64,000 nucleotides of DNA from Thermoflexus sp. Its GTDB lineage: Bacteria; Chloroflexota; Anaerolineae; Aggregatilineales; Aggregatilineaceae. Where the stretch lies: positions 1 to 64,000 of the forward strand of contig DYGX01000007.1 of assembly GCA_020724465.1 (NCBI GenBank), in the 5' to 3' direction. Positions 37,300-47,589 of the stretch are shown here, piece after piece (positions within the stretch are counted from its first letter, which is position 1; every line of letters begins with the position of its first letter). The notes beneath the pieces were generated by a model that was not told where the DNA came from, searched no databases, and saw nothing but the letters and a program-made list of their open reading frames with translations. The translations under genes were made by a program, and so were the position numbers.

Positions 37300-37518
37300 T
37301 CAGCCCAACAGCAGAATCATCGCCGCCGTTGCGAACCCGAGAATCACAACCGTCTCCGGAATCGCGATCAAGAGGATGATCGCACCCAGCAGATCGGGTT
37401 TTTCGGCCAGAGCACCGGCGCCCGCCGCGCCAATGCGAGACTGCGCCAGCCCGGTTCCCAACGCGGCGAGTCCGATCGCCAGTCCGGCCCCAATCGCCAT
37501 CAGCCCGGTTTCCATCAT
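37300..37518 (-). CDS. atpK: V/A-type ATPase proteolipid (c/K) subunit
   Basis: The 72-residue protein is a two-helix hairpin with a polar loop AEKPDL at 38-43 and the ion-carrying Glu55 in IPETVVILGF. This is the short, unduplicated ring subunit. Gln26 is in the first helix, but I cannot decide from sequence alone whether the ring carries H+ or Na+. AAGGAGG stands before the paired ATGATG start, which overlaps the stop of subunit I. Confidence 0.93.
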   Translation of the reverse strand: MMETGLMAIGAGLAIGLAALGTGLAQSRIGAAGAGALAEKPDLLGAIILLIAIPETVVILGFATAAMILLLG

Positions 37519-39437
37519 GACGCCTCCTTACCCTGTTCGTGAACGTGCGGCAGCCGGAACGCCAGCGGCTGGTACGGCCGACCACCACCTTCGTAGAAGT
37601 TGCGGAAGAATTCAACGTAGTGCAGGCGCAAGCTCTGAATCGTCGGGCTGAACGCGCCCAGCACCAGGTTCAGCGCGTGCAGCAGCGCCGCGATGATCAC
37701 GCCGACGACCACACTGCCCACGGTGCCCGCGATCTCCCCGGCCACCAGCGCCAGATAGACTGACGACAGCCCAATCGCCGCGATACGGAGATAGGACAGC
37801 ACGTTGCCCACCAGCCCGATCATCTCAATCGGCGCCATTAACACGCCGATGCGCCCCAACGACGCGCCAAGCAGCACGGTCCCGATCACCAGCAGCGCCG
37901 CCGCCGGGGTGATCAGGCCATCCGGCAGCACTTCGACCAGCGCGCCGACTAGCAGAAAGAGCGCGATCAGCCCCAACAGGCGCCCGCCGCGCTCAAGGAG
38001 ATGGTGGCGGCTGCGCTGCCTGGCGCCTTCCCACAGCCCCAGAAGCAGCCCAAGCACCAGATGCATGCCCCCCACGCCGACCGACAGAGCGAGCAGGTCG
38101 AGCAGGTGATCTTCGCTCGCGCGGTCGAACAGAATGGCGTGCAGTCCGAAGGATTCCCCCAGCCTGCCGAAGAACTCGCCGAACAGCACGCCGAAGACAA
38201 TCGCCCATCCCGCGCCGTACGCCAGGACCGTCGTCAGGCTGTGCATCATCCCCGGCTTCAGGCGGCGGCGTACCAGAAACACCAGACCCAGCAACAGCGC
38301 CCCATAGCCGATATCGCCCAGCATCATCCCGAAAAAGATCGGCATGAACAGCGCCATCAGCCGCGATGGATCGAGCACATCGTAGCCGGGCAGACCGTAG
38401 AGCCGGACCAGCGCCTCGAAGGGACGAACCGGCGCAGGATTCGCCAGCAGGACCGGCGCGTGCCTGCGTTCCTCGGGCGTAACCGGCAACCGGATGATCT
38501 CGACGGCGTCACCCGCTCGCTCGTAAAGCGCGCGCTGCACCCGTTCAACTTCATCTTCAGGGGTCCAGCCCAGCAGCACGAAGGTCATGCCCGTCTCGCC
38601 CGCCGAGGCGATGACCTCGTAGGCGTCCAGCTCGTCTTGCAACCGGTCGCTCCACAGCAGCAGCCTGTCTTCCCAGCGCTGGGCCAGCGCCGCGAGGTCC
38701 TGCTCCACCTGGGCCAGACGCCCCGGCAGGGCGTTCAACTGCCGGCGCAATGCGGCGATCGCCGCATCCGGCGAGTCGGTGCTAAACTCGCGCGGGAGCC
38801 GCAGGCGCGAGACATCCTCGCGATCCAGCAGCGCATTGACCGGGTCGGCATAGGCGCGCGGAACCACGATCAGCATCGCGCAGAGTGCCTCGCCGACCGC
38901 AGCCGTCGCTGTTTCGGCGCGACCCTGCGTGATCCGGCCCACCTCGGACGCGATTAGAGTCAGCACGTCAGCGTGGCTGCGGCTGACGAGCAGCCCGAAC
39001 GACACGCTGTCGGGCTGGCGCGCCATGGGCGGAAAAACCGGCAGAAGCTGGCGCATGGTATCCTCAAAACGCGCCAGCAGCTCGCGTTCGGCGCGCAGGG
39101 CGTCCTGCTGGGCCTTCAGCACCCGAACCTGGGGAACCAGCTCCGCGATCCGGGCATAGATCACGTCCAGCGGTTCGACCGTCATCCCGGCAGGCGGGGC
39201 AGCCCGCCGCGCGATACCCAGCATATCGAGCAGCCCCTTGACCTGGGCGAAATGGCGGCTGATCTCTTCCTGCGCGCGGATCAGCGCGGCATCCACGCTC
39301 AGCGGTTGCAGCAGCAGTTCCGGCGCGTCGGCGGCGCGGTCGAGATGGACACATCCCAGCTCGCCCAGCGCCCGGATGACCGGCAACAGCGCCGGCTTGA
39401 GGCCGATGATCTGCACGCGCGCCATCTCACGGCTCAT
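37515..39437 (-). CDS. atpI: V/A-type ATPase subunit I (a)
   Basis: The 640-residue protein has a large cytoplasmic N-terminal half with coiled coils and a C-terminal half with about seven to eight membrane helices. It contains the MPIFFGMMLGDIGYG segment and the SYLRIAAIGLSSVYLALV helix whose Arg faces the ring glutamate. It forms the ion path at the ring interface. ATG 39437 is chosen; MARVQII at 39425 is an alternative. The N-terminus overlaps the coiled-coil gene by 11 bp. Confidence 0.93.
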   Translation of the reverse strand: MSREMARVQIIGLKPALLPVIRALGELGCVHLDRAADAPELLLQPLSVDAALIRAQEEISRHFAQVKGLLDMLGIARRAAPPAGMTVEPLDVIYARIAELVPQVRVLKAQQDALRAERELLARFEDTMRQLLPVFPPMARQPDSVSFGLLVSRSHADVLTLIASEVGRITQGRAETATAAVGEALCAMLIVVPRAYADPVNALLDREDVSRLRLPREFSTDSPDAAIAALRRQLNALPGRLAQVEQDLAALAQRWEDRLLLWSDRLQDELDAYEVIASAGETGMTFVLLGWTPEDEVERVQRALYERAGDAVEIIRLPVTPEERRHAPVLLANPAPVRPFEALVRLYGLPGYDVLDPSRLMALFMPIFFGMMLGDIGYGALLLGLVFLVRRRLKPGMMHSLTTVLAYGAGWAIVFGVLFGEFFGRLGESFGLHAILFDRASEDHLLDLLALSVGVGGMHLVLGLLLGLWEGARQRSRHHLLERGGRLLGLIALFLLVGALVEVLPDGLITPAAALLVIGTVLLGASLGRIGVLMAPIEMIGLVGNVLSYLRIAAIGLSSVYLALVAGEIAGTVGSVVVGVIIAALLHALNLVLGAFSPTIQSLRLHYVEFFRNFYEGGGRPYQPLAFRLPHVHEQGKEAS

Positions 39438-39783
39438 GAGCGCCCCCTTCCGGCGGCGGGGCGAGGACATAGCGCAGCGCGTCGTCGAGCATGTCCTGCG
39501 CGGACTGCTCCCATACCGGTCGCATCCGGGCGGTCAGTTCGCGCGCCCGCGCCACGATCTGCTGTGCCTCGGCCTCAGCATCGGCCAGCCGGGCTTGCGC
39601 CTCGGCGTCCCCATCCCGCCGCCCTCGCTCTGCCGCCTCGGCGCGGATCTGCTCGGCTCGCAAGCGCGCCTGGGCCACGCGCTGCGCGGCAGCCTCTTCC
39701 GCCGCACGGATCAACTCGGCCATCTCGCGCTCGGCACGGCGCACCTGCTCCAGCGCCGCCACACGCTCCGCTCTACCCTGCAC
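39427..39783 (-). CDS. V/A-type ATPase peripheral-stalk coiled coil (G/H-like)
   Basis: The 118-residue product is an almost continuous Ala/Glu/Arg-rich coiled coil from residue 5 to 95, as expected for the G/H partner of subunit E. It is the first clear ATPase gene, as in the Thermus-type order G-I-L-E-C-F-A-B-D. GTG 39783 follows GAGAGGA; a longer upstream frame has no coiled coil and is doubtful. Confidence 0.75.
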   Translation of the reverse strand: MQGRAERVAALEQVRRAEREMAELIRAAEEAAAQRVAQARLRAEQIRAEAAERGRRDGDAEAQARLADAEAEAQQIVARARELTARMRPVWEQSAQDMLDDALRYVLAPPPEGGAHEP

Positions 39784-40030
39784 GGCTGCATCCTCTCCCG
39801 GCCGGCCAGCACGGCCCCGCAGCGCACCCCAGCGCCGCACCGCCAGCAGAAACAACCCGGGCGCTGCGCACCGGAGGATCCGGCACGAGCGCCCGGGCAA
39901 AGATATCCCTGATCACCACATCATCCGGCACACGGCGATAGCGTGGACCATCGCACGGCAGTACAGTTCCCTCGTCGCACCGCAAGAGCGCGCCCGGAAA
40001 TCCCGCACGGGTCACGATATACCTGTCCAT
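39773..40030 (-). CDS. Hypothetical small protein before the ATPase operon
   Basis: An 85-residue frame begins MDRYIVTRAGFPGALLRCDEG and ends overlapping the coiled-coil gene by 11 bp. The first 50 residues look protein-like; the last 30 are Ala/Gly/Pro-rich. No family is recognised and the ribosome site is weak, so it may not be translated. Confidence 0.3.
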   Translation of the reverse strand: MDRYIVTRAGFPGALLRCDEGTVLPCDGPRYRRVPDDVVIRDIFARALVPDPPVRSARVVSAGGAALGCAAGPCWPAGRGCSRAG

Positions 40031-40213: not shown

Positions 40214-40256
40214 TTGACAAAAGTCAAAGACTAGCCCCCGGCGCTCGTGATAAATT
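40214..40256 (+). promoter_or_regulatory. CRP/FNR-type promoter of the octahaem cytochrome operon
   Basis: A perfect 14-bp dyad TTGAC-AAAA-GTCAA (40214-40227) is followed 23 bp later by the -10-like TAAATT (40251-40256). The predicted start near 40263 puts the dyad centre at about -42, the class II position for FNR-type activators. There is no good -35 hexamer, as expected for an activated promoter. The rest of the gap 40031-40432 holds a TATACT on the minus strand (40146-40151), possibly part of the ATPase promoter, and nothing else I can support. Confidence 0.6.
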
Positions 40257-40432: not shown

Positions 40433-41368
40433 ATGCGCAAACTAAAGTGGCCACCCTGGCTGAAACTGCTGATGTGTGCCGCCATAGTCCTGGGTACGGC
40501 GCTGGCAGTTAACGCCGGCAGACCGGCTCAGGCTCAAGGGCCGGACGACATGCGGCCCATTACGGACTTCCCCGAAGTCATGGAAGCCTGGGCAGGCAGT
40601 CCGCACGGCAACACCTACGACCTGGGCAAGGGACCAAACACGTACTGCTCGCGCTGCCATTCGCCCCAAAACTGGGACCCGGCCGCGCGGCCCGGCCCGC
40701 CGCCCAACTGCGTCACCTGCAAGTTCCCGCAGGACCCTGAGCTGCGCATCGCCCCAACAATGGACTTCGTGGAAGAGGACGACTGGGTGGGCATCACCTG
40801 CTCGACCTGCCATGTGGTCGAGGGCGAGCTGATCGACACGACGTCGAACGCCTGGCTCAACCCGATCGCCATGGAATACGAGCCGGTCGCGCGGGCTAAC
40901 GACCTGTGCGGCAAGTGCCATACCAACTCGACCGGCGTGTCCGAGACCGGCGGGCGCGGCGTGAATCACGAGATCGTCCTGGGCGGCAGCGCTCACCGCA
41001 ACTGGGCCGCGACTATCGGTGTCCGTCGCCCTGACACCTGCACCGACTGCCACGACCCGCACACCCAGCAGCCGATGGGCTGCGTGGACTGCCACAGCGA
41101 TGTGCTCGACCTGGAGCCGCACGTCATTCACGGCCAGGCTGTGAGTTGCATCGCCTGCCACGACGCTTCGGGCGCAGATGTCGGTCCGCATCCGGACACC
41201 GGCATCTGGACCACCATCCTGACCGAAATGAGCCGGTCCGGCGAAATGACAACAACCGCGATCGTCTCGCACAGCGTCCAGTGGCTCGTCAACTGCGACA
41301 GATGCCACTTCGAGGGCAACCCGGCCGGCCTGACGGTGCGCGACGCGTCTGGCAACCCGGTCGAATAG
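40433..41368 (+). CDS. Secreted eight-haem c-type cytochrome with one CxxCK site
   Basis: The 311-residue protein has a signal peptide (cleavage near PAQAQ, residue 35) and eight haem motifs: CSRCH 72, CVTCK 93, CSTCH 123, CGKCH 159, CTDCH 203, CVDCH 217, CIACH 239 and CDRCH 288. Seven are CxxCH; the second ends in Lys. A Lys-ligated haem marks the active site of nitrite reductase NrfA and related octahaem enzymes, but this protein is shorter than characterised octahaem reductases (about 450-550 residues), and I do not recognise it as any of them. It acts outside the membrane. ATG 40433 follows GAGGAG. It is the first gene of a three-gene plus-strand group under the TTGAC-N4-GTCAA site. Confidence 0.88.
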   Translation: MRKLKWPPWLKLLMCAAIVLGTALAVNAGRPAQAQGPDDMRPITDFPEVMEAWAGSPHGNTYDLGKGPNTYCSRCHSPQNWDPAARPGPPPNCVTCKFPQDPELRIAPTMDFVEEDDWVGITCSTCHVVEGELIDTTSNAWLNPIAMEYEPVARANDLCGKCHTNSTGVSETGGRGVNHEIVLGGSAHRNWAATIGVRRPDTCTDCHDPHTQQPMGCVDCHSDVLDLEPHVIHGQAVSCIACHDASGADVGPHPDTGIWTTILTEMSRSGEMTTTAIVSHSVQWLVNCDRCHFEGNPAGLTVRDASGNPVE

Positions 41369-41438
41369 GCGGGCGCGCCGTGCTCACGACACGGTCTACC
41401 GCGCACGCTGCGCGCCAGACACAACGATGAACCTGGCG

Positions 41439-41468
41439 GTATGGTGAGAGTCGTCCCTCTCACCATAC
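41439..41468 (+). terminator. Perfect hairpin between the two octahaem cytochrome genes
   Basis: GTATGGTGAGAG (41439-41450) and CTCTCACCATAC (41457-41468) form a perfect 12-bp stem with a six-base loop. The flank TGTTCC is only weakly T-rich. It may be a partial terminator, a processing site or a stabilising stem that sets different levels of the two cytochromes. Confidence 0.6.
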
Positions 41469-41533
41469 TGTTCCAGACGGTTTGAGCAGTCCGGAAAAGT
41501 TCTGTTTCAGGCGAGCTAGATACAGAGAAACCA

Positions 41534-42451
41534 ATGAACCAGACTGAGCGCCAATCCACGGCAGCGGACCGCCTCGGCCCGATCCGCGATGCCGTGATCG
41601 CGATCGTCTTGATCGCACTGGGCTTCGCCATCGTCGCCCTCTACCAGATCGAGGCTGCCAACACCGAGCCGGTCAGCATCAGCCAGAATACCGGCGGCGC
41701 TGCGTCCCAACTGGTGCGCGGCGCGAGCGAGCAGGCGGACACAGAGGCAGCGCTCCCCGATACTCCGCTGGATAAGTGGCTGGCCGGGCCGCACGCTGAT
41801 ACATACGTGGTCGCCGACGACGGAACAAACAGCACCTGCAATCGGTGCCACGACCCGATCAACTATGTGCCTTCGATGGCCGACATGCCCGCAAGCTGCA
41901 CCGTCTGCAAGTTCGAGGTCAAGCCCCCGCCGCCGTTGATCGAGCAGGCCAACGCGCACTCGGTCGACTGCAAAGTCTGTCATCGCGTCGATCGCAGCGG
42001 GACTGTGCTGGCCGACGTGGTGTGGCTGGAAGTGGCGGCCATCGAGCAGTACGCCGACGTGTCGTCGGTTAACCAGCTATGCCAGTACTGCCATGCTGGC
42101 GCTGGGGTCCAGGGACACGCCGACATCCAGCTTGGCGGCGCGCACGCAGACCTGACCTGCACCGACTGTCACGACGCGCATATGATGACCGCCTCGTGCG
42201 GCGCGTCCGGCTGCCACGAGACGCTTGGCGAGACACCCGGCCACGACGCCGATCATGCCGGTGTCCACTGCGTCGCCTGTCACGACGCCAGCGGGATGGA
42301 CGTGGGACCGGATGAGTCGCGCGGGGGGCAGTGGGTGACCTTCGCCAGGGGCGATGCTGAAGACCCGTTCCCGCACCTGTCGCACATGCTGGCGCGCGAG
42401 GTGGCCTGCGACCGCTGCCATGTCGAAGGTCTTCCGGAGACAGACGAGTGA
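41534..42451 (+). CDS. Membrane-anchored eight-haem c-type cytochrome with one CxxCK site
   Basis: The 305-residue protein has an uncleaved N-terminal anchor helix (about 19-38) and eight haem motifs: CNRCH 102, CTVCK 122, CKVCH 146, CQYCH 183, CTDCH 209, CGASGCH 222 (a Cx4CH), CVACH 246 and CDRCH 292. The order, the Lys in motif 2 and the spacing parallel the preceding protein, and both share CHDASG.DVGP after haem 7 and CDRCH.EG at the C-terminus, so the two are paralogues. As the anchored partner it could pass electrons from the membrane to the soluble one. A weak AGAGAAA precedes the ATG. Confidence 0.85.
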   Translation: MNQTERQSTAADRLGPIRDAVIAIVLIALGFAIVALYQIEAANTEPVSISQNTGGAASQLVRGASEQADTEAALPDTPLDKWLAGPHADTYVVADDGTNSTCNRCHDPINYVPSMADMPASCTVCKFEVKPPPPLIEQANAHSVDCKVCHRVDRSGTVLADVVWLEVAAIEQYADVSSVNQLCQYCHAGAGVQGHADIQLGGAHADLTCTDCHDAHMMTASCGASGCHETLGETPGHDADHAGVHCVACHDASGMDVGPDESRGGQWVTFARGDAEDPFPHLSHMLAREVACDRCHVEGLPETDE

Positions 42452-42503
42452 GCAGGCAATCCCTCGCGTTTTTTGAAGCTGAAGAGTGTTGGAGCAGCGT
42501 CTC

Positions 42504-43193
42504 ATGAGTGTTAAATCAGCCCGCATCCTGTGGATCGTTGCCGTGGTGGCGATGGGCATGACGGCCGCGATGAACCTGTTCGGCGGCATCGGCACGGTCT
42601 GCGCGGCGTTCCTGACGGAGAACTTCCCGCCGATGCTCGTCCTGCTGGACTATCAGTGGCTCTACCAGCGCATGATGCTGATCACCATCGCGATCGGCAT
42701 CGCCGGTGTGTCGGCAACCTTCGCGCTGTTCCGGGGCGGGACCAACGCCTACCGTAACGCCGTGCTGGTTCTGATCGCCGGCGCGGTGCTGGGCGAGCTG
42801 CACGCCCGCGCCTCGCTGGAGCTGCGCGGCAAGATGGTCCCGGCCAACGTCAAGTTCTATCTGAACCTCTTTACGCTGATTCTGTTCCTGATCCTGGGCC
42901 TGCCGACGATCCGTCGCAAAATCGCGTTCTCGCAGCCGCGCGGCCGGGCCGAAGTCACCGCCGCCGGTGGAATGGCCGCTCTGATCGTCGGCCTGATGAT
43001 GCTGACCCTGCCGCTGTGGGTCGGGGATTCGCACACGCACGCGGGCACCGACTGGACCGACGTGCTCCAGCCGGGTCTGAGTCTGGTCGGGCTGGCGTTT
43101 GCGGCGGGCGGACTGGGCGTGTTCTTCAAGGCGGCGCTGACCGTGCTGCGCCGGCCGGACCCGGCTGCCACGCGCCAGCCGGCAGCGTCTTGA
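42504..43193 (+). CDS. Uncharacterised membrane protein of the haem module
   Basis: The 229-residue protein has about six hydrophobic segments (roughly 8-30, 45-70, 84-100, 118-135, 152-170 and 190-208), with one His in a loop (LGELHARASLE) and a His pair (DSHTHAGTD) between the last segments. No family is recognised. GGAGC precedes the ATG at 42504. It is 52 bp after the anchored cytochrome and the last gene before a strong convergent hairpin, so it is probably the membrane partner of the cytochromes. Confidence 0.75.
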   Translation: MSVKSARILWIVAVVAMGMTAAMNLFGGIGTVCAAFLTENFPPMLVLLDYQWLYQRMMLITIAIGIAGVSATFALFRGGTNAYRNAVLVLIAGAVLGELHARASLELRGKMVPANVKFYLNLFTLILFLILGLPTIRRKIAFSQPRGRAEVTAAGGMAALIVGLMMLTLPLWVGDSHTHAGTDWTDVLQPGLSLVGLAFAAGGLGVFFKAALTVLRRPDPAATRQPAAS

Positions 43194-43224
43194 CGCGCGC
43201 CGTCGCTCTCCGAACACACAAAGA

Positions 43225-43258
43225 CAGCCCGCCGGATTGAGTGTCGCCCGGCGGGCTG
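43225..43258. terminator. Bidirectional terminator-like hairpin
   Basis: CAGCCCGCCGG (43225-43235) and CCGGCGGGCTG (43248-43258) form a perfect 11-bp stem with a 12-base loop in the 90-bp gap between convergent genes. There is no T-tract on either side. Confidence 0.55.
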
Positions 43259-43283
43259 CTGGTTGCGCGTGTCGTGGCCCGGC

Positions 43284-44192
43284 TCAGGCGCCGAGGATGA
43301 TCAGGAGCATCGCCGTCAGCATATAGATCGACGCGAACTTGAAGATGCCGAAATTCAGCCGAGGCGAAGGGTACACCACACTCAGCGCGGTCAGCCCGGC
43401 CAGCGCCAACCCCAGACTGACGGTCGCGTACATGCAGTGCGCCTTTAGCTCGATGAGCCAGGCGGCGCACGCCATCGTCAGCACGGCCAGGATGGTTGAG
43501 ACGCTGATGATCAGCCGCGTGACGCGCTCCCCGTAGCGATTGGCGAAGGTGGGAACTCCCGCCCGCCGGTAGTCGGCAGCGTGCTTGATGCCATAGGTCA
43601 TGATGTGCGTGGGGATCCACAGCAGAACGGCCAGTGCCATCAGCAGGCCGATGTGCTCAATCTGGCCGGTGCCCAGCGTGCGCCCGGCCAGAATCGGCAT
43701 GCCGCCCGCGATCCCTCCCCAGATGATCGACCACGGCGTGCGCCGCTTGAGCCAGATGGTGTAGACCATGACGTCAAACGTCAGGCCGGCGCCCACCACC
43801 AGCCCGTACCAGGGCGCCAGCACCAACGCGCCGCCCACACCCAGCACGGACAGAGTCAGCCCGACCACCAGGGCTTCCCCAGGGGCAATGGCGCCTGAGG
43901 GCAGCGGGCGGCGCGCAGTGCGCTCCATCCGCGCGTCGATATCCCGGTCGTACACCATGTTCAGCACGGTGCTGCCGCTGATCGCCAGAAAGAGCGTGAC
44001 CAGCATCCCGATCAGAGTCGACCAGCGCTGCACCGGGCAGCACACACTGGCGAAGCCAGCCAGCCCGGTGATCAGCAGCAGCCCGGTCTGCAGGCTCTTG
44101 ATGAGCTGCCAGTAAAGCCGCAGCTTGATCCAAACCCTGGCTGGCGAGCTGTTCACATCGAGCTGCTCCACAACCACGCGTGTCCCTTGCAT
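43284..44192 (-). CDS. ctaB: Protohaem IX farnesyltransferase-like protein (CtaB family)
   Basis: The 302-residue UbiA-superfamily membrane prenyltransferase has the first Asp-rich motif NMVYDRDIDARMERTARRPLP (starting about residue 88) and the second region HAADYRRAGVPTFANRYG, both typical of haem O synthase. Eight to nine membrane helices are predicted. It would attach farnesyl to haem B to make haem O. No CtaA or cytochrome oxidase gene is present; the partner at 45116 may use haem O. The start codon directly abuts the stop of the SUMF1-like gene. Confidence 0.85.
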   Translation of the reverse strand: MQGTRVVVEQLDVNSSPARVWIKLRLYWQLIKSLQTGLLLITGLAGFASVCCPVQRWSTLIGMLVTLFLAISGSTVLNMVYDRDIDARMERTARRPLPSGAIAPGEALVVGLTLSVLGVGGALVLAPWYGLVVGAGLTFDVMVYTIWLKRRTPWSIIWGGIAGGMPILAGRTLGTGQIEHIGLLMALAVLLWIPTHIMTYGIKHAADYRRAGVPTFANRYGERVTRLIISVSTILAVLTMACAAWLIELKAHCMYATVSLGLALAGLTALSVVYPSPRLNFGIFKFASIYMLTAMLLIILGA

Positions 44193-45119
44193 TTAGTCAC
44201 CTGGCGCGGCGTCACGCGCGCAGCGGAAGCCGACGTTGGGGCTGGCATACTGTGGCGCGGCGTTGTTGCTGGCCCACACGCGCAGATAATGCTCGTATTC
44301 CGCCCGGCTGCCGCCACGCATATAGCGGTAGTGCTGCTTGTCTTTCACGTCGCCGGTCCATTCCCAGACGTTGCCGGCCATGTCGTACACGCCGTAGGGG
44401 CTGGGCGAATCCAGCGTCTCGTAGCCCTCGTAAGTTTTGCCGTTATAGAACCCGACCGGCGTCGTGTCGCCGTATTTGCCAAATATCTTTTCGAACAGAT
44501 CGCGGCTGCTGTAGTAGTTCGCGTTGTTGCGCGCGAGTTCGTAGCCCCACGGGAAGGGACGGCCATCGGTGCCGCGCGCCGCCTTCTCCCACTCGACCTC
44601 GGACGGCAGGCGCCAGCCGTAGTATTCGCAATATGCCCGCGCCCCGAACCACGTCACGTACACCGCCGGGTGATTGTGATAGCCCTCTTTGACGGTGAAT
44701 GTCTCGCCGTCGAAGCTCAGCCGCGTGCCGTCTTCATCCAGCGGGAACAGCGGCCAGTCGCCGGCGTCGATGCGCTCCTCGTGCCGGTAGCCATGGAACT
44801 CGTCGCCCGGGTAGTAGCCGACCAGGTCGGTGCCGTCCTCGCTGATGCGGATCGTGCCGTCGGACAGCGCCGCGTTGAGGAAATCCGCGAACTGCGCGTT
44901 GGTCACGTTGGTCACCATGATCTCGTAGTCATAGTCAACCGCCGTCACGTGCTCGTGCTGGCCCATCAAGAACTCGCCCGCGGGAACCAGTGCCCAGGCG
45001 TCCGGGTCAATGCCCGTCTCGACGACCAGCAACTCCGCCGCCTCTTGGCCGGAACAGGACGCCAGCAGCACCGCCGCCAGTGCCATCAGCAGCCCGATCA
45101 GGAAGCGTTTCGCCTTCAT
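44193..45119 (-). CDS. SUMF1/FGE-fold lipoprotein
   Basis: The 308-residue protein starts with a lipoprotein signal (LLASC; lipid Cys near residue 22). A formylglycine-generating-enzyme-like domain follows (ALVPAGEFLMGQ, WRLPSEVEWEKAARGTDGRPFPWG, GVYDMAGNVWEWTGD, RGGSR, SPNVGFRCARD). The paired cysteines that follow RGGS in true FGE are absent, so it is probably a binding or assembly factor, not a sulfatase activator. NirV proteins beside nitrite reductases share this fold, an interesting parallel. Its ATG overlaps the stop of the upstream membrane protein (ATGA). Confidence 0.85.
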   Translation of the reverse strand: MKAKRFLIGLLMALAAVLLASCSGQEAAELLVVETGIDPDAWALVPAGEFLMGQHEHVTAVDYDYEIMVTNVTNAQFADFLNAALSDGTIRISEDGTDLVGYYPGDEFHGYRHEERIDAGDWPLFPLDEDGTRLSFDGETFTVKEGYHNHPAVYVTWFGARAYCEYYGWRLPSEVEWEKAARGTDGRPFPWGYELARNNANYYSSRDLFEKIFGKYGDTTPVGFYNGKTYEGYETLDSPSPYGVYDMAGNVWEWTGDVKDKQHYRYMRGGSRAEYEHYLRVWASNNAAPQYASPNVGFRCARDAAPGD

Positions 45120-46636
45120 TTCGACATCTCCTGCGCGGACGTCAAGACCTCGCCAACTTCGACGCGTTGGGCATCCAATCCCGCCTCGCGATATTCCCGG
45201 CGCCACAGCCCGTCGCCATCAAACAGATCTACCAGCCGCCAGATCATCAGCCCGGCCAGCGCCAGCAGCACCACTACGATCCCTGCGTCAGCCAGCAGCA
45301 TCGTCCAGTCCACAACCGGCTGCTGGTTGGCTTCCGAGACGAACAACCGCTTCATCTCGAAAACCGTCACCGCACCAAAGGCCAAGTCCGAGCCGAGAAT
45401 GACCGCCCACCCGAACCACTGCCGCACCCGCCCGCGCAGGTCGATCATATCGGCGTAGTAGAGCAAGATGATGGTGGCGATGATGCCGGACAGGATGTGC
45501 CAGTGACCGGTCAGGATCAGGCGTTCGTCACGCAGCGGCCAGACTCGGAAGATCTCGGTCAGCTTGACCGCGACGAAGATGCCGACGAAGCTGACGGTGA
45601 AGTTCATGAAGACCATCTGCCACAGCGCGCCAAAGCGCAGCGGGTCGTGCAGCAGAGCACGCAGCCCCTGCCCAAAGCTCGCCCGTTCGATGCCCCGTTC
45701 TGCCAGGCGATCCCGGATAATCTTGCGGAAACCGAAAATCACCAGAAACAGCGCCGCCGTCAGAACGAACACCGACCCCACGTAAATGATGGTGTGCGCC
45801 GAGCCGCCGTGCATGGGCACCACCGACCACGTCCCGATCGTCATGACGATGGTGCCGAGGATCATCAGCGGCATAGAGATCTTGTGGAGAATGCCTCTAA
45901 AGCGGAACCAGACGCCCACCACCAGCGCCAGCGCGATGGCGATCAGCGCCAGCATGATGTGCAGGTGCCCGATGATGGCGTACTGCAGAGTTGTTTTGTC
46001 GGGCGAGCGGATGATGTCCTCGGCCAGAAATGTTTCGTGGCCCTGGCCCCAGTAAGAGCCGGTGATCGCGCCGAGCACCGCCGACCCAAGCGCCGCGACG
46101 GCCATCGTGAAGAAGGCTGTCCGCTCCAGGTCGAGGCCGCGCAGATGCGCCCTCTCGGCGTCCTGGACGTAGTATTCCTTACGCCACGGGAACAGCGCCG
46201 CCGCCAGCAGCAGCCCGGCGAAAAACACCAGCGACAGCCCGAACAGATAGAGGCCGTGGAGCAGCCACTCGTGCCCAAAATAGGCGAAGCCGAGGCCGCA
46301 GAACATCGACACCAGGTAGCCCAGCGTCACGGTGGCGTTGATCGTCGTCTGCTGGTGTTTCTTCATCGGCACGACGTCCGTGATCAGGTAGACCATGATC
46401 GCCACGACCGCCATCGCGATGACGTGATAGAGGATGACGATGCGGCCTTCGCGCTCGGCGGGCTGAAGGTCGAACCCCAGCAAGCGGACGGTCACATCCC
46501 GCACGCCCCATTCCACCATCGGGCCGGAGAGCGTCCCCCAGATCGCGGTCACCAGCGCGATCAAGGCGATGGCAACCAGCACCAGCCCTTTGGTAGACTG
46601 AAAAAGATATCTGAACCGTGCCTGAATAGCCTGCAT
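45116..46636 (-). CDS. Polytopic membrane protein with paired HxH motifs, possibly haem-binding
   Basis: The 506-residue protein has 12-14 predicted membrane helices and many intramembrane or interfacial histidines: His71 (ILYHVIAM), His122 and His127, His224/His226 (IIGHLHIMLALI), His251, His276 and His281, and His378/His380 (LTGHWHILSGII). The two HxH helices and the regions after them resemble each other and, weakly, helix X of haem-copper oxidases (HFHYV). It lacks the HLW.E and HH motifs of NO reductase and the HPEVY and HH motifs of oxidases, so it is not an ordinary member of either. ATG 46636 with GGAG upstream is preferred; GTG 46657 is possible. It heads an operon with the SUMF1-like and CtaB-like genes. 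Confidence 0.7.
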   Translation of the reverse strand: MQAIQARFRYLFQSTKGLVLVAIALIALVTAIWGTLSGPMVEWGVRDVTVRLLGFDLQPAEREGRIVILYHVIAMAVVAIMVYLITDVVPMKKHQQTTINATVTLGYLVSMFCGLGFAYFGHEWLLHGLYLFGLSLVFFAGLLLAAALFPWRKEYYVQDAERAHLRGLDLERTAFFTMAVAALGSAVLGAITGSYWGQGHETFLAEDIIRSPDKTTLQYAIIGHLHIMLALIAIALALVVGVWFRFRGILHKISMPLMILGTIVMTIGTWSVVPMHGGSAHTIIYVGSVFVLTAALFLVIFGFRKIIRDRLAERGIERASFGQGLRALLHDPLRFGALWQMVFMNFTVSFVGIFVAVKLTEIFRVWPLRDERLILTGHWHILSGIIATIILLYYADMIDLRGRVRQWFGWAVILGSDLAFGAVTVFEMKRLFVSEANQQPVVDWTMLLADAGIVVVLLALAGLMIWRLVDLFDGDGLWRREYREAGLDAQRVEVGEVLTSAQEMSK

Positions 46637-46774
46637 CAAACCTGATTCTCCTGACACGTCGAAGCCGGATCAACAGAATAATGCTCCAGCGCGGTCATAC
46701 AAATGCTGCGTCTGCCGGGCGCGCGGCTGATGCCAACCAGCGCCGCGCCCGTCAGGCGCGAGCCTTCTCGTTTC

Positions 46775-46816
46775 ATGGTAGCATGCGAGGAAAAAGGGGT
46801 CTTTGACTTTCGTCAA
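46775..46816 (-). promoter_or_regulatory. CRP/FNR-type promoter of the membrane-protein/ctaB operon
   Basis: A perfect dyad, read on the plus strand as TTGAC-TTTC-GTCAA (46803-46816), stands 22 bp upstream of the minus-strand -10-like TACCAT (46775-46780). A start near 46768 would place the dyad centre at -41.5. The geometry matches that of the cytochrome promoter at 40214. Confidence 0.6.
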
Positions 46817-46881
46817 ATCCGCCTGCAAACCGGCGGAGCGTCGCCTGCCAGATTTATCCCTGCCCAGGCGCGTGGAACCGG

Positions 46882-47589
46882 TCAGCGACAGCCGCGCTCG
46901 GGCAGGCTATCGAGCTGGGCCAGTTCGGCCAGCCTGTCCGGATCGCAAATCACGATCGTCGTGCGCGAAGGGCAAACCACGCCTTCATCCCGCAGGTAGC
47001 GCAGCGCGCGGCTGACCGCTTCCGGGGCGGTCGAGATCTGCGCTGCCATCTTCTGAATGGGGTGGTCCTGCCGGGAGATCGGCAGGCGTCCCTGATCGCT
47101 CAGATCGAGCAGCAGCTTCGCCGTCCGCGCCCGCACCGATCGGAAGCAAATGTCGGTCACCATCGCGACCAGCACACGCGTCCGCTTCGCGACCACAGGC
47201 AGGAAGCCCAGCGCCACCTGCGGGTAACGCTCGGCCAACACCAGCAGAGCAGGGTAATCGGCGTGCCACACGCGGCTGGGTCGGGCGGCGATAACCGTCA
47301 TGGGGTTGGGGCCGCCGTCGAGGATCGCGATTTCGTTGAACATCGTCACCGGCGTCAGCTCATCGATCAGCACGGCCTGCCCGTCCGGACTCATCCGGTA
47401 CAGATGCACCATGCCCGACAGCAACACAAACATCCCCGCGCAGGGGGTGTCTTCGATGACGATCACCTCGCCTTCGGCGAACGAGCGAATATGCCCCGCG
47501 CGGATGATAGCCGTGATGTCCCCCGGCGAAAGTCCCTTGAAAAAGCGCAGACGGCTCATTCGCTCGGCAAGGTTAGCGATATTGACCAT
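46882..47589 (-). CDS. CRP/FNR-family transcriptional regulator
   Basis: The 235-residue protein has an N-terminal cyclic-nucleotide-binding-like beta roll (residues about 15-130) and a C-terminal winged helix. The recognition helix reads APEAVSRALRYLRDEG; the E..SR pattern is the one FNR uses to read TTGA half sites, matching the TTGAC-N4-GTCAA dyads nearby. FNR's cluster of N-terminal cysteines is missing, so it is more like DNR/NNR-type sensors that detect NO or another signal. AGAGGA precedes ATG 47589. The 396-bp region upstream (47590-47985) has a TTGACA at 47846 with no convincing -10 and nothing else I can support. Confidence 0.88.
   Translation of the reverse strand: MVNIANLAERMSRLRFFKGLSPGDITAIIRAGHIRSFAEGEVIVIEDTPCAGMFVLLSGMVHLYRMSPDGQAVLIDELTPVTMFNEIAILDGGPNPMTVIAARPSRVWHADYPALLVLAERYPQVALGFLPVVAKRTRVLVAMVTDICFRSVRARTAKLLLDLSDQGRLPISRQDHPIQKMAAQISTAPEAVSRALRYLRDEGVVCPSRTTIVICDPDRLAELAQLDSLPERGCR

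Follow-up and report, generated by a model that had tools for sequence, protein, structure and literature searches.

Which reaction is served by the seven genes that lie at positions 40433-47589 of a 64,000-nucleotide stretch of a Thermoflexus sp. genome (contig DYGX01000007.1; this whole stretch is referred to here as the window)? A preliminary description of the sequence regarded them as a possible respiratory or detoxification module defined by two octahaem cytochromes, in which no known reductase type was recognised. Our analysis shifts the interest from the cytochromes to a polytopic membrane protein of the same locus, designated here POLY, which very probably has the fold of the haem-copper oxidase (HCO) superfamily according to its predicted structure. 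The module would be an inducible system for the reduction, and hence detoxification, of nitric oxide (NO), with an HCO-fold NO reductase fed by the octahaem cytochromes, a reading that we hold to be about evenly balanced between right and wrong.

All the sequence-based routes from POLY to the HCOs gave nothing. No profile in Pfam or NCBIfam matched the protein (hmmscan, E 0.1), that of COX1 (PF00115) included, no match was obtained against the sequences of the Protein Data Bank (PDB) by phmmer or by profile hmmsearch, and HHalign comparisons with 7 COX1 and with 17 NorB/cbb3 proteins were not significant (the S. meliloti NorB and FixN were picked by sequence from the open reading frames (ORFs) of pSymA). 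POLY is thus joined to the HCOs by fold comparison alone. An AlphaFold2 model built with 23 homologues (pLDDT 79, pTM 0.85) found its best structural match in the PDB in a cbb3 oxidase (6xkw, VIA-align Z 23.4 over 412 residues at 4.1 A); a cNOR (4xyd) reached Z 22.9, and the 50 structural matches listed were HCOs without exception. The Foldseek TMq values were 0.35-0.58 for HCOs and 0.12-0.20 for unrelated membrane proteins, none of the matches having an E-value below 0.001. The modelled fold and the approximate ligand layout would therefore place POLY within the HCO/NO-reductase superfamily, at a distance that Pfam and NCBIfam profiles do not span, and in this respect the preliminary description needs to be amended. 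As the assignment is made from predicted fold and ligand order, we place POLY under no named HCO family.

Residues H78, H134, H231, H233, M235, H288, H385 and H387 (numbered from the GTG at 46657) are invariant in 82/82 POLY homologues. In the model, H78 lies on transmembrane helix (TM) 2, H231 and H233 on TM6, H288 at the TM7/8 junction, and H385-W-H387 on TM10, so that the order of histidines across the predicted helices is that of HCOs, and H78, H385 and H387 would be the counterparts of the HCO haem ligands, a His on TM2 and an H-x-H on TM10. The canonical CuB/FeB site is built from one His on helix VI and two adjacent ones after helix VII, and here POLY departs from it: its helix VI carries H-L-H-I-M, and helix VII is followed by one His (A287-H288). 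Four residues after the helix VI His, oxygen reductases carry Tyr, cNOR and qNOR Glu, and eNOR Gln, the diagnostic residue being Asn in sNOR and CuANOR/bNOR and Asp in gNOR (Table A4, PMC8756737). The nearest equivalent position in POLY, His231+4, is occupied by Met235 in all the homologues, hence neither by the FeB-site Glu of cNOR/qNOR nor by the Q, N or D of eNOR, sNOR, CuANOR/bNOR and gNOR, and, as far as sequence position goes, there is no Tyr at His231+4 or His233+4. A tyrosine, Tyr292, is found four residues past His288, but it is present in 77/82 homologues and hence not invariant. The putative metal site of POLY is in sum unlike that of every described HCO type that was checked. The seventh invariant histidine, in H134-G135 (window 45116-46657), is located at the predicted start of TM4, and we know of no HCO haem or metal ligand to which it corresponds.

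An incomplete binuclear site, in a protein whose gene adjoins that of a haem O synthase paralogue, could also belong to a non-catalytic membrane protein that binds haem and serves in its maturation, transport or sensing. We regard this as quite improbable, given that six histidines of haem/metal type and the HCO helix layout are retained in 82/82 homologues and that a dedicated operator and cytochromes imply electron flow.

The elements of the locus are as follows.

40214..40228, + strand: operator TTGACAAAAGTCAAA, an HcpR1-type CRP/FNR box upstream of CYT1; one of exactly two genome copies, kept before CYT1 in genomes G001, G002, G006 and G016
40433..41368, + strand: CYT1, octahaem c-type cytochrome with an N-terminal signal peptide; seven CXXCH and one CXXCK, matches to PF14522 and PF22113
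41534..42451, + strand: CYT2, octahaem cytochrome, paralogue of CYT1; six CXXCH, one CX4CH and one CXXCK, hydrophobic N-terminal segment
42504..43193, + strand: MEM3, small polytopic membrane protein; no family match in Pfam or NCBIfam
43284..44192, - strand: CtaB-like haem O synthase paralogue; UbiA/haem O synthase, TIGR01473
44193..45119, - strand: SUMF1/FGE-fold lipoprotein; PF03781, E 2.6e-40
45116..46639, - strand: POLY, 507 aa, about 12 predicted TM helices; predicted HCO-fold, catalytic-subunit-like membrane protein (AlphaFold model and invariant residues)
46802..46816, - strand: operator TTGACGAAAGTCAAA upstream of the POLY operon, found by pattern search
46882..47589, - strand: CRP/FNR regulator with the helix-turn-helix TAPEAVSRALR; PF00027 and PF13545

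All seven ORFs were confirmed, with CYT1, CYT2 and the small membrane protein (+ strand, 40433-43193) converging on four genes of the - strand (43284-47589). The two converging groups, the count of eight haems in each cytochrome, and the SUMF1-fold, CtaB-like and CRP/FNR calls thus stand as first described. The co-occurrence of the gene set was also checked, and an identical seven-gene layout was found in G002, G006 and G016 and, spread across two contigs, in G001, which excludes that these are scattered homologues with no conserved neighbourhood.

A scan of one genome per species for POLY relatives yielded 325 stretches, and phyla were named from the best 80. These, mostly metagenome-assembled genomes, came from Chloroflexota, Neomarinimicrobiota (Fidelibacterota), Aminicenantes, Calditrichota, KSB1, Bacteroidota, Chlorobiota/Ignavibacteria, Desulfuromonadia, a Myxococcota-labelled bin, Eisenbacteria and a Symbiobacterium bin, so that the operon recurs in about ten phyla. 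In most loci POLY, SUMF1 and CtaB lie side by side (about 70/79 for SUMF1 and 66/79 for CtaB, counts in which the simple gene caller misses some genes). Membrane proteins of ~205 residues precede and follow the three genes, and relatives of MEM3 occupy the 3' end of the operon in many genomes. On the other hand, the cytochrome family was detected in 2/400 genomes of the phylum (E 1e-20). The core of the module is therefore POLY-SUMF1-CtaB, widespread without the octahaem cytochromes, and a defining role of the latter is not supported.

The window CtaB is a borderline case for TIGR01473 (198 bits, not reaching the cut-off of 210.3), whereas its orthologues in G105 and G212 exceed that cut-off (212.6 and 215.6). 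It is a second copy: the window's own genome (G000) has another at contig C4 with the motif HFWAL. The operon version carries PTH(I/T)(M/L)T (PTHIMT in the window), and CtaB proteins elsewhere in the same or related genomes carry P-x-HFWAL/SL. A second copy with a distinct motif suggests a dedicated supply, and the operon CtaB likely provides an O-type haem or a variant of it. Regarding the SUMF1 protein, its RGGS segment MRGGSRAEYEHY contains no Cys, and the sole conserved one is C329, in a C-terminal GFRC segment. Judged by its residues, the protein is devoid of the cysteines of a working formylglycine-generating enzyme (FGE), the catalytic pair of which we take to be placed after RGGS. No combination of SUMF1 with an HCO/NOR module was found in the literature, which is weak evidence of novelty, most subscription papers being outside reach. 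Downstream of CtaB, three loci of Desulfuromonadia type (L092, L095 and L105) encode a ~325-residue protein, a ~400-460-residue protein, which in L105 resembles a FadL/TodX-type porin, and a ~90-residue two-haem cytochrome.

Evidence on the signal and the substrate comes in the first place from the operators. The element TTGACRAAARTCAAA is present upstream of both POLY and CYT1, and the palindromic pattern TTGACNAAANTCAAA occurs in exactly two copies per genome in 5/5 module genomes, before POLY and before CYT1, the CYT1-side copy of G001 preceding a contig-end fragment of CYT1. This pattern has 13 fixed bases, for which by our own arithmetic ~0.1 chance matches are expected per 4.4 Mb genome, and the reversed pattern, used as a control, gave 0 matches in the five genomes. 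The seven genes are almost certainly one co-regulated unit. The box of HcpR1, an NO-response regulator, is wyTTGACnnnnGTCAArw and goes with a Ser or Pro in place of CRP Arg180; in two cyanobacteria the sole HcpR1-type sites precede hcp and norB, and in Synechocystis an HcpR-type operator lies before norB (Rodionov et al., PMC1274295). Both window operators, located before the regulated genes, fit the HcpR1 box TTGACnnnnGTCAA. In the alignment, the Pro and Glu of the TAPEAVSR segment of the window CRP fall on CRP Arg180 and Glu181, so that Arg180 is replaced by Pro and Glu181 is retained, as described for HcpR1. We propose TTGACRAAARTCAA as the putative target box of this CRP and, by analogy with HcpR1, infer NO as its signal.

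Similar associations were found elsewhere. Among the CRPs encoded beside POLY, Pro180 versions accompany TTGACnnnnGTCAA in five loci and Arg180 versions accompany TTGTGAnnnnnnTCACAx in another five, the operator type mostly tracking residue 180, with exceptions such as L150. Allowing up to one mismatch, TTGACnnnnGTCAA- and TTGTGA-type boxes lie upstream in 12 and 10 of 79 POLY loci; the majority have neither, and none was found in control windows inside the POLY gene. The FNR/DNR box TTGATnnnnATCAA was tried and rejected, as it occurred in 5 loci with one mismatch, at sites partly identical to those of the HcpR box. TetR regulators with a YsiA-like C-terminal domain were observed near the POLY operon in 15/78 scanned upstream proteins (e.g. 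L092, L105, L076 and L114), where they would represent an alternative control replacing CRP.

The neighbours of POLY homologues also bear on NO. YgbA_NO is encoded immediately upstream of the operon at three loci, and ygbA belongs to the NsrR/NO response of enterobacteria. Rrf2 regulators were found at three loci, DUF2249/DUF1858 at two, and ScdA_N and hemerythrin at one each, with a borderline match to NnrS. The window's own genome encodes aa3 and cbb3 oxidases, with a genuine cbb3 at L154, and contains neither NosZ nor a homologue of the S. meliloti-type NorB (cNOR/qNOR) at E 1e-10. Its COX1 matches are these aa3 and cbb3 oxidases plus two short fragments at C4; eNOR and similar B-family NO reductases, which would have matched COX1, are consequently unlikely in this genome. 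The fragments correspond to two tandem small membrane ORFs (L155; C4, 139921-140702; open frames of 169-177 aa), each matching the first ~130-145 COX1 positions (39 and 23 bits), and similar short fragments exist in several relatives; they may encode HCO-like or NnrS-like proteins of half size. A 407-aa membrane protein near the POLY operon of L127 (6910-8130), with weak matches to NnrS (E 1.7e-4) and COX1 (E 0.0065), could be a further missing link around the HCO fold.

Taken together, the operator, the neighbours and the oxidase/NorB content of the genome favour NO over O2, and NO has, in our estimate, roughly an even chance of being the substrate of the POLY module. The competing proposal, that POLY is an unusual O2-scavenging quinol or cytochrome oxidase of anaerobes under oxygen stress, controlled by a sensor of redox state or oxygen, draws on the top Z of cbb3, although ties within 1 Z unit include cNOR, on a dedicated CtaB, O-type haem being typical of oxidases, on the many hosts that by title come from anaerobic lineages, and on Tyr292. 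However, this tyrosine is not invariant and none is conserved at the helix VI positions, a single histidine follows helix VII, the genome already has two oxidase types, and both operator and neighbours are of NO-response type, so that we consider an oxygen reductase unlikely.

Several points weigh against NO reduction by POLY. Its membership of the HCO superfamily comes from one predicted model, in the tests run it resembled no HCO by sequence or by profile, and the canonical CuB/FeB HH and the NorB Glu are both missing. N-oxide neighbours occupy a minority of POLY loci, in counts that have no background rate, and at many homologue loci TetR regulators are encoded where an HcpR-type box is absent. 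A local source of NO would be an assumption, and NosZ does not track POLY (1/17 POLY genomes versus 27/400 overall). For S. meliloti NorB no association was found across the same 400 genomes either (0/17 POLY genomes), and a complete denitrification pathway is therefore unsupported; the NosZ distribution fits detoxification better than denitrification.

The octahaem cytochromes are about 32% identical to each other. The haem motifs of CYT1 are CSRCH, CVTCK, CSTCH, CGKCH, CTDCH, CVDCH, CIACH and CDRCH, and those of CYT2 CNRCH, CTVCK, CKVCH, CQYCH, CTDCH, CGASGCH, CVACH and CDRCH; the N-terminal segment of CYT2 is probably an anchor. The second motif is CXXCK in 17/17 aligned relatives (C93-x-x-C96-K97), and CXXCK is the proximal-Lys motif of the active sites of NrfA and octahaem nitrite reductase (ONR) (PMC8840924). 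A catalytic haem is therefore possible in both proteins, which could then form ammonium from nitrite, hydroxylamine or NO as enzymes of the NrfA, ONR or octahaem tetrathionate reductase (OTR) kind, with POLY giving electrons or removing escaping NO. NrfA, ONR and OTR families were nevertheless not among their Pfam/NCBIfam matches, the PDB returned only scattered weak multihaem matches, and the majority of POLY operons have no cytochromes. Moreover, distant relatives adjoin a molybdopterin oxidoreductase/ferredoxin/NrfD operon in G037 and G020 (types named from sequence), a neighbourhood that suits a general electron carrier. Catalysis by the cytochromes is thus rather improbable; the AlphaFold2 model of CYT1 (pLDDT 46) is too poor to show an open haem.

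The preliminary description had proposed a membrane-linked reductase of a nitrogen or sulfur compound. Its first part holds, in that the module is conserved and of reductase type, with nitrogen most likely in view of the HcpR-type operator and the NO-response neighbours; for sulfur no evidence was found. Reduction of a sulfur compound such as tetrathionate would have in its favour the general likeness of a Lys-motif octahaem cytochrome to OTR and nothing else, and the neighbourhood scans, in which no sulfur gene stood out, the absence of an OTR match and the NO-type regulation and neighbours leave it very improbable.

Among distant octahaem relatives, those of L053 (3109-11323), L055 (6762-14048) and L052 (6126-12949) have CXXCK as first and second motifs and adjoin what resembles an operon for a molybdopterin oxidoreductase, a ferredoxin and an NrfD-type protein; their loci also encode a ~610-residue protein with a carboxypeptidase-regulatory-like domain. 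V-type ATPase genes adjoin octahaem cytochrome genes in the window (37515-39900) and in G020 (L052, 130-6091), although in G020 the cytochromes are distant and the remaining neighbours differ from those of the window.

Returning to NO reduction, the distribution of the cytochromes suggests how the reductase may be fed. The pair occurs with POLY in the window's clade, L085 and L150. The five genomes of window layout have no ~205-residue protein anywhere (E 0.01), whereas in G021, G047, G105 and G212 this protein is present and no cytochrome pair lies next to POLY; L085 retains both. The octahaem pair is a lineage-specific addition to the POLY operon, and the simplest reading would be that it took over electron delivery from the ~205-residue proteins.

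For the metal, haem type and electron path of the module we infer the following scheme. POLY would be a membrane-embedded haem/non-haem-metal reductase with an HCO fold. Its low-spin haem would be ligated by His78 and His387, and its high-spin haem, probably of O-type and a product of the dedicated CtaB paralogue, by His385; a second metal, where two NO would be coupled to N2O, would be bound by His231/His233/His288 and perhaps Met235. At the outer face, the SUMF1 lipoprotein and MEM3 may assist assembly or serve as additional subunits. The quinol pool would supply the electrons; in most lineages the ~205-residue membrane proteins encoded in the operon would probably pass them on, and in the window lineage the two exported octahaem cytochromes would do so in their stead. 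The local CRP, with its HcpR1-type DNA specificity, would activate both operons on sensing NO. The full proposal, namely that anaerobes from about ten phyla reduce NO by means of an unrecognised, profile-invisible HCO family that has an H-x-H-x-M plus one-His metal site, its own haem O synthase and a SUMF1 partner and is fed here by an octahaem pair in place of small membrane subunits, is plausible, at somewhat less than even probability. If true, a whole superfamily branch, present in Chloroflexota, Calditrichota, Aminicenantes, Neomarinimicrobiota (Fidelibacterota) and others, escapes the HCO profile searches on which surveys of aerobic respiration and of NO reduction depend, and the counts of NO sinks and N2O sources in anoxic sediments are too low. 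The unusual metal site would also inform on which HCO active-site residues NO or O2 chemistry needs, and the apparent swap of small membrane proteins for octahaem cytochromes would offer a testable example of a reductase changing its electron donor.

Compared with known systems, POLY shares with the HCO-type NO reductases (cNOR, qNOR, eNOR, bNOR, sNOR, gNOR and nNOR) the predicted fold of ~12 helices, the His on TM2, TM6 and TM7/8 with the H-x-H on TM10, and an HcpR-type operator. It differs from them in having H-x3-M instead of H-x3-E/Q/N/D, an additional His on helix VI, one His rather than HH after helix VII, no similarity by sequence or by profile in the tests run, and CtaB and SUMF1 of its own in place of NorC/NorQD or a cupredoxin subunit. 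The CcoN subunit of cbb3 oxidases is its top structural match and has a similar ligand spacing, whereas POLY has no evident cross-link Tyr, one CuB His fewer, and no CcoO/CcoP in the operon. NrfA, ONR and OTR resemble CYT1 and CYT2 as multihaem proteins with an invariant CXXCK, but in the latter this is the second of eight motifs, no family match links them, and the proteins have about 300 aa versus ~520 aa in ONR. Finally, the closest PDB chains to the window CRP are other CRP/FNR proteins, DNR among them, and the HcpR regulon has in common with the locus the box, the change of Arg180 to Pro with Glu181 kept, and the small number of genomic sites, whereas the window CRP would govern the POLY module instead of hcp or norB.

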